Positions 12,264 to 27,973 of a DNA stretch of 64,000 bases are shown piece after piece; position 1 is the stretch's first letter, and every line of letters starts with the position of its first letter. The stretch spans positions 1-64,000 of the forward strand of contig NZ_JAJIUJ010000034.1 in the NCBI RefSeq assembly GCF_020880415.1, written 5' to 3'. The position numbers and the translations under genes are program-made. The notes below the pieces were generated by a model. The model made no database searches. It was not told the DNA's origin and saw only the letters and a list, made by a program, of their open reading frames with translations. This stretch comes from Xanthomonas euvesicatoria pv. euvesicatoria (GTDB lineage Bacteria > Pseudomonadota > Gammaproteobacteria > Xanthomonadales > Xanthomonadaceae).

Positions 12264-13214
12264 ATGCGCCCCTCGCTTTACGCTCCGTTGTCCTTCATCG
12301 CCTGCACCGCGCTGGCCCTGGGCGCCTGCAAGCCCGCCGACACGCAGCCAGCCCCGCACGCGCAGGAAGCCACCGCAACTGCCGATGCCGACGCCAGCGC
12401 TGCGGCCAGCAAGGCCGCAACGTCGTCCACCACTGCACCGGCCGGCGACGACAACCTCAATGCGGTGCTGTGGATGCAGCGCTCGGAGGAATACCGTGCC
12501 GTGGCCGAGCAGACCTATCGCGCTGCGGCCGACAAACTGGACGCTGCACTCAAGCAATCCAACTGGGACGCGTTGGTGCCGGAGGAACGCGGCAATGCCG
12601 CCACCGGCCTGAAGCCGGCGGTGGTGCTGGATGTGGACGAGACTGTGCTTGACAACTCGCCCTACCAGGCGCGGCTGCTGCGCGATGGCAAGGAATACGA
12701 CGAGCTGAGCTGGGACCAGTGGGTGGCCGAGAAGAAGGCCACTGCCATTCCCGGCGTGGTGGATTTCGCCAAGGCCGCCAATGCCCGCGGCATCACCCTG
12801 ATCTACATTTCCAACCGCGCGGTGCACCTGAAGGACGCCACCTTGGCCAATCTGCGCAGCGTGGGCCTGCCGGTGGCCGATGACAGCGTCTTTCTCGGCC
12901 TGGGCACGGTGGTGCCCGGCTGCGAGCAGAACGGCAGCGAAAAGAACTGCCGCCGCCAGCTGGCCGGACAGAAGTACCGCGTGCTGATGCAGTTCGGCGA
13001 CCAGCTGGGCGACTTCGTGCAGGTCACCGCCAACACCGGCCAGGCGCGTGGCGCCTTGCTGCAGCAGTACCACGACTGGTTCGGCGAACGCTGGTGGATG
13101 CTGCCCAACCCCAGCTACGGCGGCTGGGAGCCGGCGCAGTTCAACAACGACTACGCGCAACCCTGGCAAAAGCGCCACGACGCCAAGCGCGCTGCGCTGG
13201 AGGTGGCCCGATGA
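12264..13214 (+). CDS. HAD class IIIB acid phosphatase, lipoprotein e(P4) family
   Basis: Probable membrane-anchored periplasmic phosphomonoesterase of 316 residues. The start ATG 12264 gives a lipoprotein signal with lipobox LALGAC at residues 17-22, followed by an Ala/Thr-rich linker. The HAD nucleophile motif [11 protein letters not shown] near residue 120 has both catalytic Asp residues, and motif II lies in [10 protein letters not shown]. The C-terminal HAD motif is in [10 protein letters not shown]. The stop TGA overlaps the pyrF start as ATGA (13211-13214), so the two genes are translationally coupled. Known members dephosphorylate nucleotides such as NMN, and pairing with a nucleotide-synthesis gene fits nucleotide salvage; the exact substrate here is inferred. 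Confidence 0.92.
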
Positions 13215-13942
13215 GCCGCGCGCCCTTGCCGCTGGCCGCGCATGAGCGGCTGATCTTCGCGCTGGATGTGCCCGGCCACGATGAAGCGATCGCCTGGGTG
13301 GACCGGCTCGGCGATTCGGTGTCGTTCTACAAGATCGGCATGGAGCTGCTGGCATCGGGCGAGTACTTCCACGTGCTCGATGCGCTGGCCAAGCGCGACA
13401 AGCGCGTGTTCGTGGACCTCAAGTTCTTCGACATTCCCGCCACCGTGGCCGGCACCATCCGCCGCCTGGCGCAGTGGCCGGTGAGTTATTGCACGGTGCA
13501 CGGCTGGCACGCCGGCATGCTGCAGGCCGCCGCCGAGGCCAATCACGGTGACATGCGCCTGCTGGCGGTCACGGTACTGACGTCGATGGGCCGCCCGGAC
13601 CTGGCGGCAATGGGCATCGACCGTGAACCGGTGGACGTGGTGGTGGAACGCGCGCTGGCTGCGCAGGCCGCCGGGATCGATGGCGTGATCGCTTCGGGGC
13701 AGGAAGCCGGCCCGATCCGCCGCGCCACTGGCCCGGACTTTTCGATCGTCTGCCCCGGCATCCGCCCCGGCGGCCCGGTCGGCGACGACCAGCAACGCAC
13801 GGTCGGCGTGGCGCAGGCCTTCACCGACGGCGCCGACGCGATCGTCGTTGGCCGCCCGATCCGCCAGGCGAGCGACCCTGCAGCCGCTGCCACCGCCATC
13901 CAGGACGAGATCCGCGCGGCACTGCCGCAGAACGGAAACTGA
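13211..13942 (+). CDS. pyrF: Orotidine 5'-phosphate decarboxylase
   Basis: Converts OMP to UMP, the last step of UMP synthesis. The protein is a 243-residue TIM barrel of the longer bacterial type. Key motifs are LIFALDVPG at the first strand, [17 protein letters not shown] with the catalytic Asp-x-Lys-x-x-Asp array, the TVHGWH segment, and VCPGIRPGG for phosphate binding. The final barrel strand [14 protein letters not shown] completes the phosphate site. ATG 13211 overlaps the upstream phosphatase stop by four bases. The candidate small RNA gene begins about 100 bases downstream. Confidence 0.96.
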
Positions 13943-13995
13943 TCGGGCCGAAGCAGCGGCCAGCTTCCAAATAAATCAATAGGTAGGCGGCAACA

Positions 13996-14014
13996 ATTAA
14001 AGCATTGCTTTAAT
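13996..14014. promoter_or_regulatory. Perfect inverted repeat overlapping a -35 box
   Basis: ATTAAAGC and GCTTTAAT are exact reverse complements separated by ATT. The AT-rich palindrome stands out from its GC-rich surroundings and overlaps the candidate -35 element of the small RNA promoter, a position that suits a repressor or activator site. The binding protein is unknown. Confidence 0.5.
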
Positions 14015-14033
14015 GTGAAAGTCTCGTTAACAT
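14005..14033 (+). promoter_or_regulatory. Candidate sigma-70 promoter of the small RNA
   Basis: A TTGCTT -35-like element (14005-14010) is followed after 17 bases by TAACAT (14028-14033), a fair -10 element. This would start transcription near 14040, just before the three hairpins described for the small RNA. The -35 matches consensus only in TTG, so the call rests on spacing and on context. Confidence 0.45.
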
Positions 14034-14039
14034 GCCAGC

Positions 14040-14131
14040 GTCCGATGTCAGTCGGAAGCTGTGCCACTCATTGTCCACCGGGCTTGTCCCGGTTTTCGAA
14101 GGGATCGGGCCTTGTGTCCGATCCTTTTTTT
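14040..14131 (+). ncRNA. Candidate small regulatory RNA, three stem-loops with terminator
   Basis: A roughly 92-nt transcript is predicted between the promoter at 14005-14033 and a U-rich terminator. Stem 1 is TCCGA/TCGGA with a six-base loop (14041-14056). Stem 2 is ACCGGG/CCCGGT with loop CTTGT (14077-14093). Stem 3 is GGATCGG/CCGATCC with a nine-base loop, followed by seven T (14102-14131). About 20 unpaired bases lie between stems 1 and 2. No open frame with a ribosome site is seen within it. The layout of promoter, modular hairpins and Rho-independent terminator in an intergenic gap is typical of trans-acting sRNAs. I do not recognise a named family, and it could instead be a leftover pyrF 3' region. 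Confidence 0.55.
14102..14131 (+). terminator. Rho-independent terminator
   Basis: A seven-base-pair GC-rich stem (14102-14108 with 14118-14124) is directly followed by seven T residues (14125-14131). It would end the candidate small RNA and any read-through from pyrF. Confidence 0.75.
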
Positions 14132-14349
14132 GGCCGTCACGTTCGCGTGTCGTGGCGACCGACATCAGTGGCTGGCTGCGTGGTGGCATAGATCGCGCGT
14201 TACCCGCGGCACCAGGCGAGCATGCATCGCCTGGACGCACGCGCGAAGCGCGCCGTTAGCGCACGCTTGGATCCCTGCGTTCGTTATCGGTCATGCGCAA
14301 CTGCCACCACCTTCAGCATCAGTTCCAGCCGCAGTGCAAACCAAGGCAC

Positions 14350-15870
14350 TTACGGTAACGCAGCCGCCTTGCAGTAGCGGTCGATGAATTGCTGGTGGCT
14401 TGGCATCACATCCACGCAGCGGCTGATGGTCTGCGCCACGCTGGCCAGAAAGCCTTCGGCGTCGCGGTCGGGCACCTGGTCCACCAGCGGGTGATATCCC
14501 TGCGGCAGGATGCCCTGGCCCACCAGTACCTGCACCCAGCTGATTTCGGCAAACATTTCTTCGGCATTGCGATAGAAGCGCCCGCTGTCGCGGAACAGGT
14601 CCAGCGTGGTCTGCAGCTCCGGGGTGATCGGCATGTGGCGGCAATGCCGCCAGAACGCGCTGTCGTCGCGCTCGGTGGCGTGGTAGTGCAGCAGCAGAAA
14701 GTCGCGGATGCGGTCGAACTCGAATGCAAGCCGGTCGTTGTAGCGCTGCACCAGCACCGGGCTGATGCCCTCGCGCGGAAACAGCTCCAGCAACTTGGAA
14801 ATGCCGGACTGGATCAGATGGATGCTGGTCGATTCCAGTGGCTCCAGAAATCCGCTGGCCAGGCCCAGTGCGACGACATTGCGGTTCCAGCACTGCTTGC
14901 GCCGCCCGGTGGTGAAGCGCAGCGGGCGCGGGTCGGCCAGCGGCTTGCCGTCCAGATTGGCCAGCAACGTGGCGGCCGCTTCGTCGTCGCTGATGTGCGC
15001 GCTGCAGTACACATAGCCGTTGCCAGTGCGGTGCTGCAGCGGAATGCGCCATTGCCAGCCGGCTGCGCGCGCAGTGGAGCGTGTGTATGGCGTGGGCGGG
15101 CCAACCTTTTCGCAGGGCACTGCCAGCGCGCGATCGCACGGCAGCCAGTGGGTGAAGTCGTGATAGCCGGTGTGCAGCGCCTCTTCGATCAAGAGCCCAC
15201 GGAAGCCGGAGCAATCGATGAACAAGTCGCCGTGCACCGTCTGTCCGGACGCCAGTTGCAGCGATTGCACATGGCCGCTTTCCGGATGCAGCTGCACCTG
15301 CTCGACCAACCCTTCGATGCGGGTCACGCCGCGCTGCTGCGAATACCGGCGCAGAAAGTGCGCGTACTGCGTGGCGTCGAAGTGGTACGCGTAGGCGATG
15401 TTGGCCAGCGGCGAGTTGGCCGGCACATCGCCGGCGGAGGTCATGAACTTGCCGCGCGCAGCCGCCACGGTATTGAGCGTGTACGCCCCCAACGGCTGTG
15501 CTCTGCCGCGTGCGTGTTGCTTGATCCAGTATTGGTGAAACGGCAATAGCCCCAGCGGGTGCCCGATCTGGGTGCCGAAGCCATGCATGTACGCGGTTCC
15601 CGGGCGTTGCCAGTCGACGAACTCGATACCGAGTTTGAAGCTGCCCTGGGTCTGGCGCACGAACTCGGCCTCATCGATGCCGAGCAGGTTGTTGAAGGCC
15701 TTGATGTGCGGCACGGTGGCTTCGCCCACCCCGACGGTGCCCAGCTGGTCGGACTCGATCAGCTGCACCTTGAAAGTGGGCCCGAGCACGCGCGCAAACG
15801 CGGCGGCCGCCATCCAGCCGGCGGTGCCGCCGCCGACAATGACGATGTTGCGAAGTGGAGCGGGAATCAT
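14350..15870 (-). CDS. Tryptophan-halogenase family flavoprotein
   Basis: FAD-dependent protein of the flavin-dependent halogenase superfamily, 506 residues. The N-terminal dinucleotide fold reads IVIVGGGTAGWMAAAA. The conserved Lys region is in GSFKLGIEF, and the halogenase signature WQWRIPLQHR (WxWxIP) lies near residue 270. 'LASGFLEPLESTSIHLI' carries the Glu that pairs with the Lys in true halogenases. The start at 15870 (MIPAPLRNIVIVG) places the FAD motif at the N-terminus; longer frames upstream are not conserved. In xanthomonads and Caulobacter such proteins are commonly found next to TonB-dependent receptors in carbohydrate-uptake clusters, as here, where it follows the two Oar-like genes. 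The true substrate is unknown and halogenation is not proven. Confidence 0.88.
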   Translation of the reverse strand: MIPAPLRNIVIVGGGTAGWMAAAAFARVLGPTFKVQLIESDQLGTVGVGEATVPHIKAFNNLLGIDEAEFVRQTQGSFKLGIEFVDWQRPGTAYMHGFGTQIGHPLGLLPFHQYWIKQHARGRAQPLGAYTLNTVAAARGKFMTSAGDVPANSPLANIAYAYHFDATQYAHFLRRYSQQRGVTRIEGLVEQVQLHPESGHVQSLQLASGQTVHGDLFIDCSGFRGLLIEEALHTGYHDFTHWLPCDRALAVPCEKVGPPTPYTRSTARAAGWQWRIPLQHRTGNGYVYCSAHISDDEAAATLLANLDGKPLADPRPLRFTTGRRKQCWNRNVVALGLASGFLEPLESTSIHLIQSGISKLLELFPREGISPVLVQRYNDRLAFEFDRIRDFLLLHYHATERDDSAFWRHCRHMPITPELQTTLDLFRDSGRFYRNAEEMFAEISWVQVLVGQGILPQGYHPLVDQVPDRDAEGFLASVAQTISRCVDVMPSHQQFIDRYCKAAALP

Positions 15871-27634: not shown

Positions 27635-27973
27635 GAGCGACTGACAAGACGTAGCGAGCAGTCGTCAGGTGGGTGGACGGCGGGCACGAACCGGAGCGTA
27701 CGCGTGGTACATGCCGATACCGGGCACCGGCCGCGCCCGCCTGGCGGCTGCACAGTCGTTTTGTTGGATGCTCCAGGCCGTTGGCGAATGCCTTCACGTC
27801 TTGCAGGGCGCGTCGGGTGCGTGGCGAGGTGGCGGTGGGCGAGGCGCCGGCCGCCTTTCACACAGCGGTTCCGTTCGCTTCATCGGGCGCTTGCAGCGTT
27901 CCCGTTAGCATCGCAGCACCTTTCACTGTGATCGGCTGCGCTGCATCACGGGCGCCGCCGACAGGAGACTTGC
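27635..27973. other. Gene-free stretch after plsB
   Basis: About 340 bases with no recognisable gene. There are several GC-rich inverted segments, but none with a clean stem and T run that would count as a terminator. Confidence 0.4.

Follow-up and report, generated by a model that had tools for sequence, protein, structure and literature searches.

The closest described systems are the Hfq-dependent small RNA Xoo3 of Xanthomonas oryzae, known as sX14 in X. campestris pv. vesicatoria (Rfam family RF02233), and the xanthomonad small RNA sX13. According to the parts of the two reports available to us, Xoo3 is a 93-nt RNA with a 5' end mapped by RACE and a size of about 80 nt on Northern blots, with its highest level in early growth and a strongly lower level in an hfq mutant (PMC3039613). 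Its deletion altered 26 proteins on 2-D gels (18 down, 8 up), and seven sRNA deletion mutants of X. oryzae had no obvious phenotype (PMC3039613). Table 3 of that 2011 report, which compares Xanthomonas and Xylella strains only, places Xoo3 in the compared Xanthomonas strains and gives it as missing from two Xylella strains (PMC3039613). The sX14 level was likewise lower in an hfq mutant and was restored by hfq (PMC3771888).

Like sX14, sX13 has three stems, and its C-rich loops target G-rich motifs close to translation start sites (PMC3771888). However, sX13 is Hfq independent and its gene lies downstream of polA, unlike that of sX14 (PMC3771888); the conserved part of sX14 is a linear unpaired stretch, in contrast to those C-rich loops. 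Our literature searches on sX14/Xoo3, which covered titles and the beginnings of abstracts, gave nothing on sX14 outside Xanthomonas among the papers listed. sX14 itself is already known; its wide distribution, an IHF-like box and a dyad at the -35 element are additions that we did not find in print.

Identity and fold of the RNA

We have analyzed a 64,000-nucleotide stretch of X. euvesicatoria pv. euvesicatoria DNA (the window). The cmscan search of the window matched RF02233 at 14040-14131 on the forward strand, over the whole model (positions 1-92) and with 116.2 bits against a gathering cut-off of 80. The three-stem consensus structure and the structure line of the family were the same in the window RNA, which comprises the following features:

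14040..14131, + strand: sX14/Xoo3 small RNA (RF02233; cmscan, 116.2 bits)
14041..14056, + strand: hairpin 1, a perfect stem (fold; 98.6% of alignment cells paired)
14057..14076, + strand: unpaired stretch with GUGCCAC and GUCC, likely the base-pairing region (putative function)
14077..14093, + strand: hairpin 2, a perfect CCGG stem (fold; 75.6% of alignment cells paired)
14098..14131, + strand: hairpin 3 and T tract, intrinsic terminator (fold; 93.6% of alignment cells paired)

The original prediction, an RNA of roughly 92 nt read rightward from a promoter of its own to its own terminator, was right. Its suggestion of no known sRNA family was wrong, as the RNA is RF02233 and its X. oryzae homologue has been published. 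The segment 14036-14135 folded with a z-score of -4.70, and none of 200 shuffles was equally good. Of the three perfect stems originally described, the first two stood; the third folds longer (14098-14128), contains one G-U pair and is not quite perfect. The seven T reported after the stems were found at 14125-14131, at the end of the terminator.

A generic consensus scan of 13000-15500 returned neither a promoter nor a terminator, an argument against strong consensus sites. The predicted hexamers bear a weak resemblance to the sigma-70 consensus, and the T run is probably paired into the long stem of the terminator. Both promoter and terminator are nonetheless supported because they are conserved in relatives. 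Mechanical open reading frames run across the segment in the ORF list. The gene is single-copy, with no other match in its own assembly (G000). The segment is almost certainly the gene of sX14/Xoo3, a known Xanthomonas small regulatory RNA, and the explanation as a whole, that of a gene for an Hfq-dependent small RNA, is very probably correct. Membership in SorX (RF02784) was rejected, as the match was weak (22.8 bits, below the cut-off of 46.6). The window holds a second known Xanthomonas sRNA, sX9 (RF02228), at 27639-27712 on the reverse strand (71.1 bits, cut-off 44).

Distribution of the gene in the family and the order

Of 198 family genomes, 39 matched the Rfam model at E <= 0.001, but just 9, all from the window's genus, scored above its own cut-off; the gene proved more widespread. 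A model of the RNA only (R1) was built from 29 of 30 loci. The locus left out, L026, had matched the Rfam model with an E-value of 3.7e-5 and was judged false, R1 giving no match there. R1 matched 252 of 395 family genomes, in 31 of 54 genera, with one match per genome except in G160 and G358 (two each). Most of a family can thus be missed when the cut-off has been set on a single genus (9/198 versus 252/395 genomes). In a sample of 200 genomes of the order, 25 matched R1, all of them in the window's family.

We have submitted 72 of 108 loci to R1, and 71 matched. The covariation alignment comprised 69 distinct rows and was fitted to the structure, which favors covariation; changes on both sides were seen in 11 of 16 pairs across the three stems, with a covariation score of 0.336, whereas shuffles gave 0.146 and slid partners no more than 0.143. 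Such changes affected 2/5 pairs of hairpin 1, 4/6 of hairpin 2 and 5/5 modeled pairs of hairpin 3. The check suggested originally, a covariance comparison across relatives, therefore came out positive, with conserved stems and changes on both sides in all three. In our reading, the low share of paired cells in hairpin 2 comes partly from loop misalignment. Hairpins 1 and 2 have CCGG arms in common, and the minimum free energy structure pairs one with the other in 13 loci outside the window's genus (L010-L012, L015, L017-L019, L023-L025, L027, L028 and L030), which may represent an alternative fold or switch.

A second model (R2) was derived from 72 sequences of promoter plus RNA, using sequence only. 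Within the order sample it matched 184 of 348 genomes, of which, by row count, 82 belong to the window's family, 94 to a sister family (f12) and 8 to a third one (f3); the other 164 had no match, and no fourth family was matched. We take f12 to be Rhodanobacteraceae. R2 matched 111 of its 147 genomes, in 23 of 26 genera. In the class sample, 3 of 229 genomes matched, all three in the window's family, and the non-matching genomes among those listed all belong to other families.

For the two further families we have assembled 38 distant loci (35 of f12 and 3 of f3), 20 of them picked as mostly high-scoring and spread over genera and 18 being further f12 search matches. RF02233 gave no match up to E = 1 in the first 20 loci and stayed short of its gathering cut-off. 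Twenty-seven f12 RNAs were aligned, leaving out 11 of the 38 loci (ten of other types and L274, with a misplaced start). The aligned RNAs form three hairpins and are too conserved for covariation, with one covarying pair.

Promoter and gene neighborhood

Upstream of the RNA, the window carries the following promoter features:

13974..13986, + strand: predicted IHF-like box AATCAATAGGTAG, a consensus match with one mismatch to WATCAANNNNTTR
13996..14014, no strand: palindrome ATTAAAGC-ATT-GCTTTAAT, centered on the first T of the -35 element, with its core TnAnGnnTnnCnTnA conserved
14005..14010, + strand: -35 element TTGCTT
14028..14033, + strand: -10 element TAACAT (TAnnnT), with T and A at +23 and +24 from the -35 anchor

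The -35-like and -10-like hexamers with their 17-base spacer were all present as first described, and so were the arms of the inverted repeat (13996-14003 and 14007-14014). Sixty-nine of 70 family upstreams had TTGC or TTGA where the -35 element was expected; the profile rows were anchored on TTG, so that the invariance of the -35 element there is by construction. The T and the A of the -10 element were each kept in 68/69 family rows and in 95% and 82%, respectively, of the 38 distant loci, where the -35 element was picked by its fit to the dyad and the -10, a choice that favors those scores.

In the TTG-anchored rows, the dyad TnAnGnnTnnCnTnA around the first T of the -35 element was kept in the family and in the distant loci. 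The palindrome originally placed over the -35 element thus held as a conserved dyad, whereas its exact form is an extended case found in the window and was rejected as a general feature. A search of the window's own genome on both strands for further copies of the dyad (up to 3 mismatches) found only the sX14 place, and the reversed control found 4. With one place in the genome, no regulator can be inferred for the dyad; some factor may nevertheless read it.

The original prediction had overlooked the IHF-like box. We have searched 70 distinct family upstreams for WATCAANNNNTTR, which we take to be the IHF consensus, and found 48 exact, 21 one-mismatch and 1 two-mismatch copies; 69 of the 70 thus carry it with at most one mismatch, compared with 0.27% exact and 4.6% one-mismatch copies in letter shuffles. 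The box lies at a fixed place, 31-32 bp before the TTG of the -35 element, in 67 of the 70. All 38 distant loci had it at that distance (16 exact, 21 with one mismatch, 1 with three). This conservation exceeds what shared descent would give, because several flanking and intervening columns carry just 0.02-0.18 bits. The alignments showed that the predicted promoter keeps both the IHF-like box and the -35 dyad.

The own genome encodes IHF alpha, with the ihfA family TIGR00987 above its cut-off. We slightly favor direct IHF control of the sX14 promoter; the case is weakened in that it comes from a consensus match only, the window's own copy having one mismatch. IHF would then bend the DNA at about -60 and help RNA polymerase at a weak promoter. 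A G+C-rich stretch between the -10 element and the start is a trait of stringently controlled promoters. The G+C-rich stretch found there in sX14 may fit the early-growth expression.

The genes around sX14 in the window are:

12270..13214 (start approximate), + strand: e(P4)-type acid phosphatase/5'-nucleotidase (TIGR01533, 218.1 bits, cut-off 216.05)
13211..13942, + strand: pyrF, a frequent upstream neighbor (NF001273 / TIGR01740 over cut-off)
14350..15870, - strand: tryptophan-halogenase-like flavoprotein, a local neighbor only (PF04820)

Within ±1.5 kb, the e(P4) phosphatase was the most widely kept neighbor (63/71 family loci), pyrF lay upstream in 50/71, and neither was found in four (L006, L021, L100 and L102); the halogenase-like gene occurred in 21/71. 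In L021 (G034, a 2.3-Mb genome), sX14 is also shorter and A+T-richer. Although synteny had not been used in the search, the phosphatase, pyrF or both lay upstream and on the same strand in 36 of the 38 distant loci; L273 and L275 had neither, and in L270 the phosphatase was more than 1 kb off.

In the window, 98 nt separate the pyrF stop from the start of sX14; among 12 loci measured, this gap was 61-98 nt in 11 and 171 nt in the remaining one. This closeness would be compatible with a cis element, a pyrF 3' UTR/terminator or an attenuator with no trans role. Nevertheless, sX14 has its own conserved promoter, its 5' end was mapped by RACE in X. oryzae, in the available part of the report (PMC3039613), and it is present in loci that showed no pyrF upstream, which makes a cis element very improbable compared with a separate sRNA gene. 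In six loci of Stenotrophomonas or related bacteria (L022, L064, L130, L143, L146 and L147), about 1.1-1.2 kb separates pyrF from sX14; in the three viewed (L022, L064 and L130) the promoter boxes remain beside the RNA.

Among the best 80 PyrF loci, 61 carried sX14 at E <= 0.001, their titles being mainly Xanthomonas, Stenotrophomonas and Pseudoxanthomonas, and one Arenimonas match was marginal (E 0.002). Two titles, Bacillus subtilis (L141) and Rhizobium (L175), go with PyrF proteins 82% and 69% identical to the window-family query, and these assemblies are probably mislabeled or contaminated. Eighteen PyrF loci had no match. Two of them, from Arenimonas (L187 and L188), show by eye the same promoter followed by CCACAAC, GUCCUCCGG or AUCCUCCGG, and a terminator. 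Neither of two promoter patterns was found in the other 16, of which 13 were viewed over 230 bases after pyrF and three (L125, L161 and L185) were not; sX14 may fall outside the examined stretch in unmatched loci, since it lies about 1.1 kb further from pyrF in some matched ones.

The distant loci could, in principle, hold an unrelated RNA under a homologous promoter. R1 scores them weakly (best E-value 0.0062) and found none outside the family in the 200 order genomes, so that the case for homology of the distant RNAs comes from promoter, place and layout. On the other hand, the distant loci keep the place, the promoter and the spacing, and show the same order of a hairpin, a pyrimidine-rich unpaired stretch, a CCGG hairpin and a terminator. 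With filters off, 16 of 18 distant loci had their best R1 match at the correct place and on the correct strand, though with E-values of 0.0062-3.1 and with one of the 16 overlapping just partly; in L293 the match there was second-best and L270 gave none. The Arenimonas copies also go part-way as intermediate sequences. We consider an unrelated RNA unlikely, and we offer the f12 and f3 loci as orthologous genes, not as members of Rfam RF02233. The presence of the same gene in most of the sampled family is well supported, as is its presence in two further families on the grounds of place, promoter and layout. An sRNA gene with place and promoter kept across three families gives comparative leverage for finding its regulator and targets.

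The unpaired stretch and its candidate targets

The unpaired stretch that joins hairpins 1 and 2 includes several invariant or near-invariant columns. GCCAC and GUCC are conserved there in much of the family, the main f12 type has GGCCAUUUCCCUUCCGG, and the other f12 and f3 loci have a C-rich run (UUCCCCCUCCGG and similar). We read the stretch as a putative pairing region for ribosome-binding and start sites, by analogy with the C-rich loops of sX13. Hfq would stabilize sX14 at its U-rich 3' end, and the stretch would pair with translation-start regions of mRNAs. On this evidence, sX14 rather likely acts by pairing in trans.

The stable hairpins and the diffuse protein changes published for the deletion mutant (PMC3039613, as far as its text was available) might instead suit an RNA that titrates a protein, such as an RsmA-type regulator. 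Against this, we saw no repeated GGA loop motif in the sX14 sequence, the conserved unpaired stretch is linear, and the Hfq dependence given in the available parts of both reports fits base pairing better (PMC3039613, PMC3771888). Titration is accordingly quite improbable next to pairing in trans. A search of the window's own genome for targets with an 18-base wobble pattern gave 122 places, the gene itself included, versus 124 for the reversed control, and yielded no target. Two near-strict complements, one about 150-160 nt before a small ORF and one in a seemingly repetitive autotransporter-like sequence, were rejected.

We have then compared the stretch with the dksA translation start. In the window genome dksA ranked 24/45 by energy, giving no support. 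The energy test used 200 letter shuffles of the stretch in 78 genomes, of which G190 and G347 were dropped, and some of its start picks were wrong (e.g., G021 and G598); the genome's own stretch against its own dksA start reached p <= 0.05 in 8/55 genomes inside the family, most of which lend dksA no support either, and in 12/21 outside it (19 of f12 and 2 of f3). Consequently, dksA was rejected as a general target.

The dksA start codon (GUG or AUG) and the RNA pentamer (GCCAC or GCCAU) differ together between families. Among 53 genomes with a dksA start GUGGC, 44 have GCCAC in the stretch and 13 have GCCAU, and among 20 with AUGGC, 14 have GCCAU. This co-difference is weak because it is essentially one switch, in two clades and over five bases. 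Moreover, f12 genomes differ in the base that precedes the dksA start, with no change in the RNA. We have considered whether sX14 might be the Xanthomonas form of an ancient, order-wide riboregulator, with a promoter kept better than the RNA and an anti-translation-start stretch re-aimed in evolution, and regard this as a doubtful proposal.

For the sister family, dksA is a lead only; if true, the pairing would link the RNA with the stringent response. The stretch is complementary there, over 13 bp, to the ribosome-binding site and start codon of dksA. The rank of dksA in 13 genomes of the main f12 type was 3 to 27 of 134, a background of crude start picks that may include frames over the RNA gene. 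Scanning 15 f12 genomes with a 14-base pattern, one mismatch being allowed, returned 33 places, versus 10 for the reversed control; sorted by hand, 11 were the RNA gene itself, 16 lay elsewhere and 6 fell at the dksA start. The complement of the stretch was thus present at the dksA translation start in 6 of the 15 genomes, the sixth being G551.
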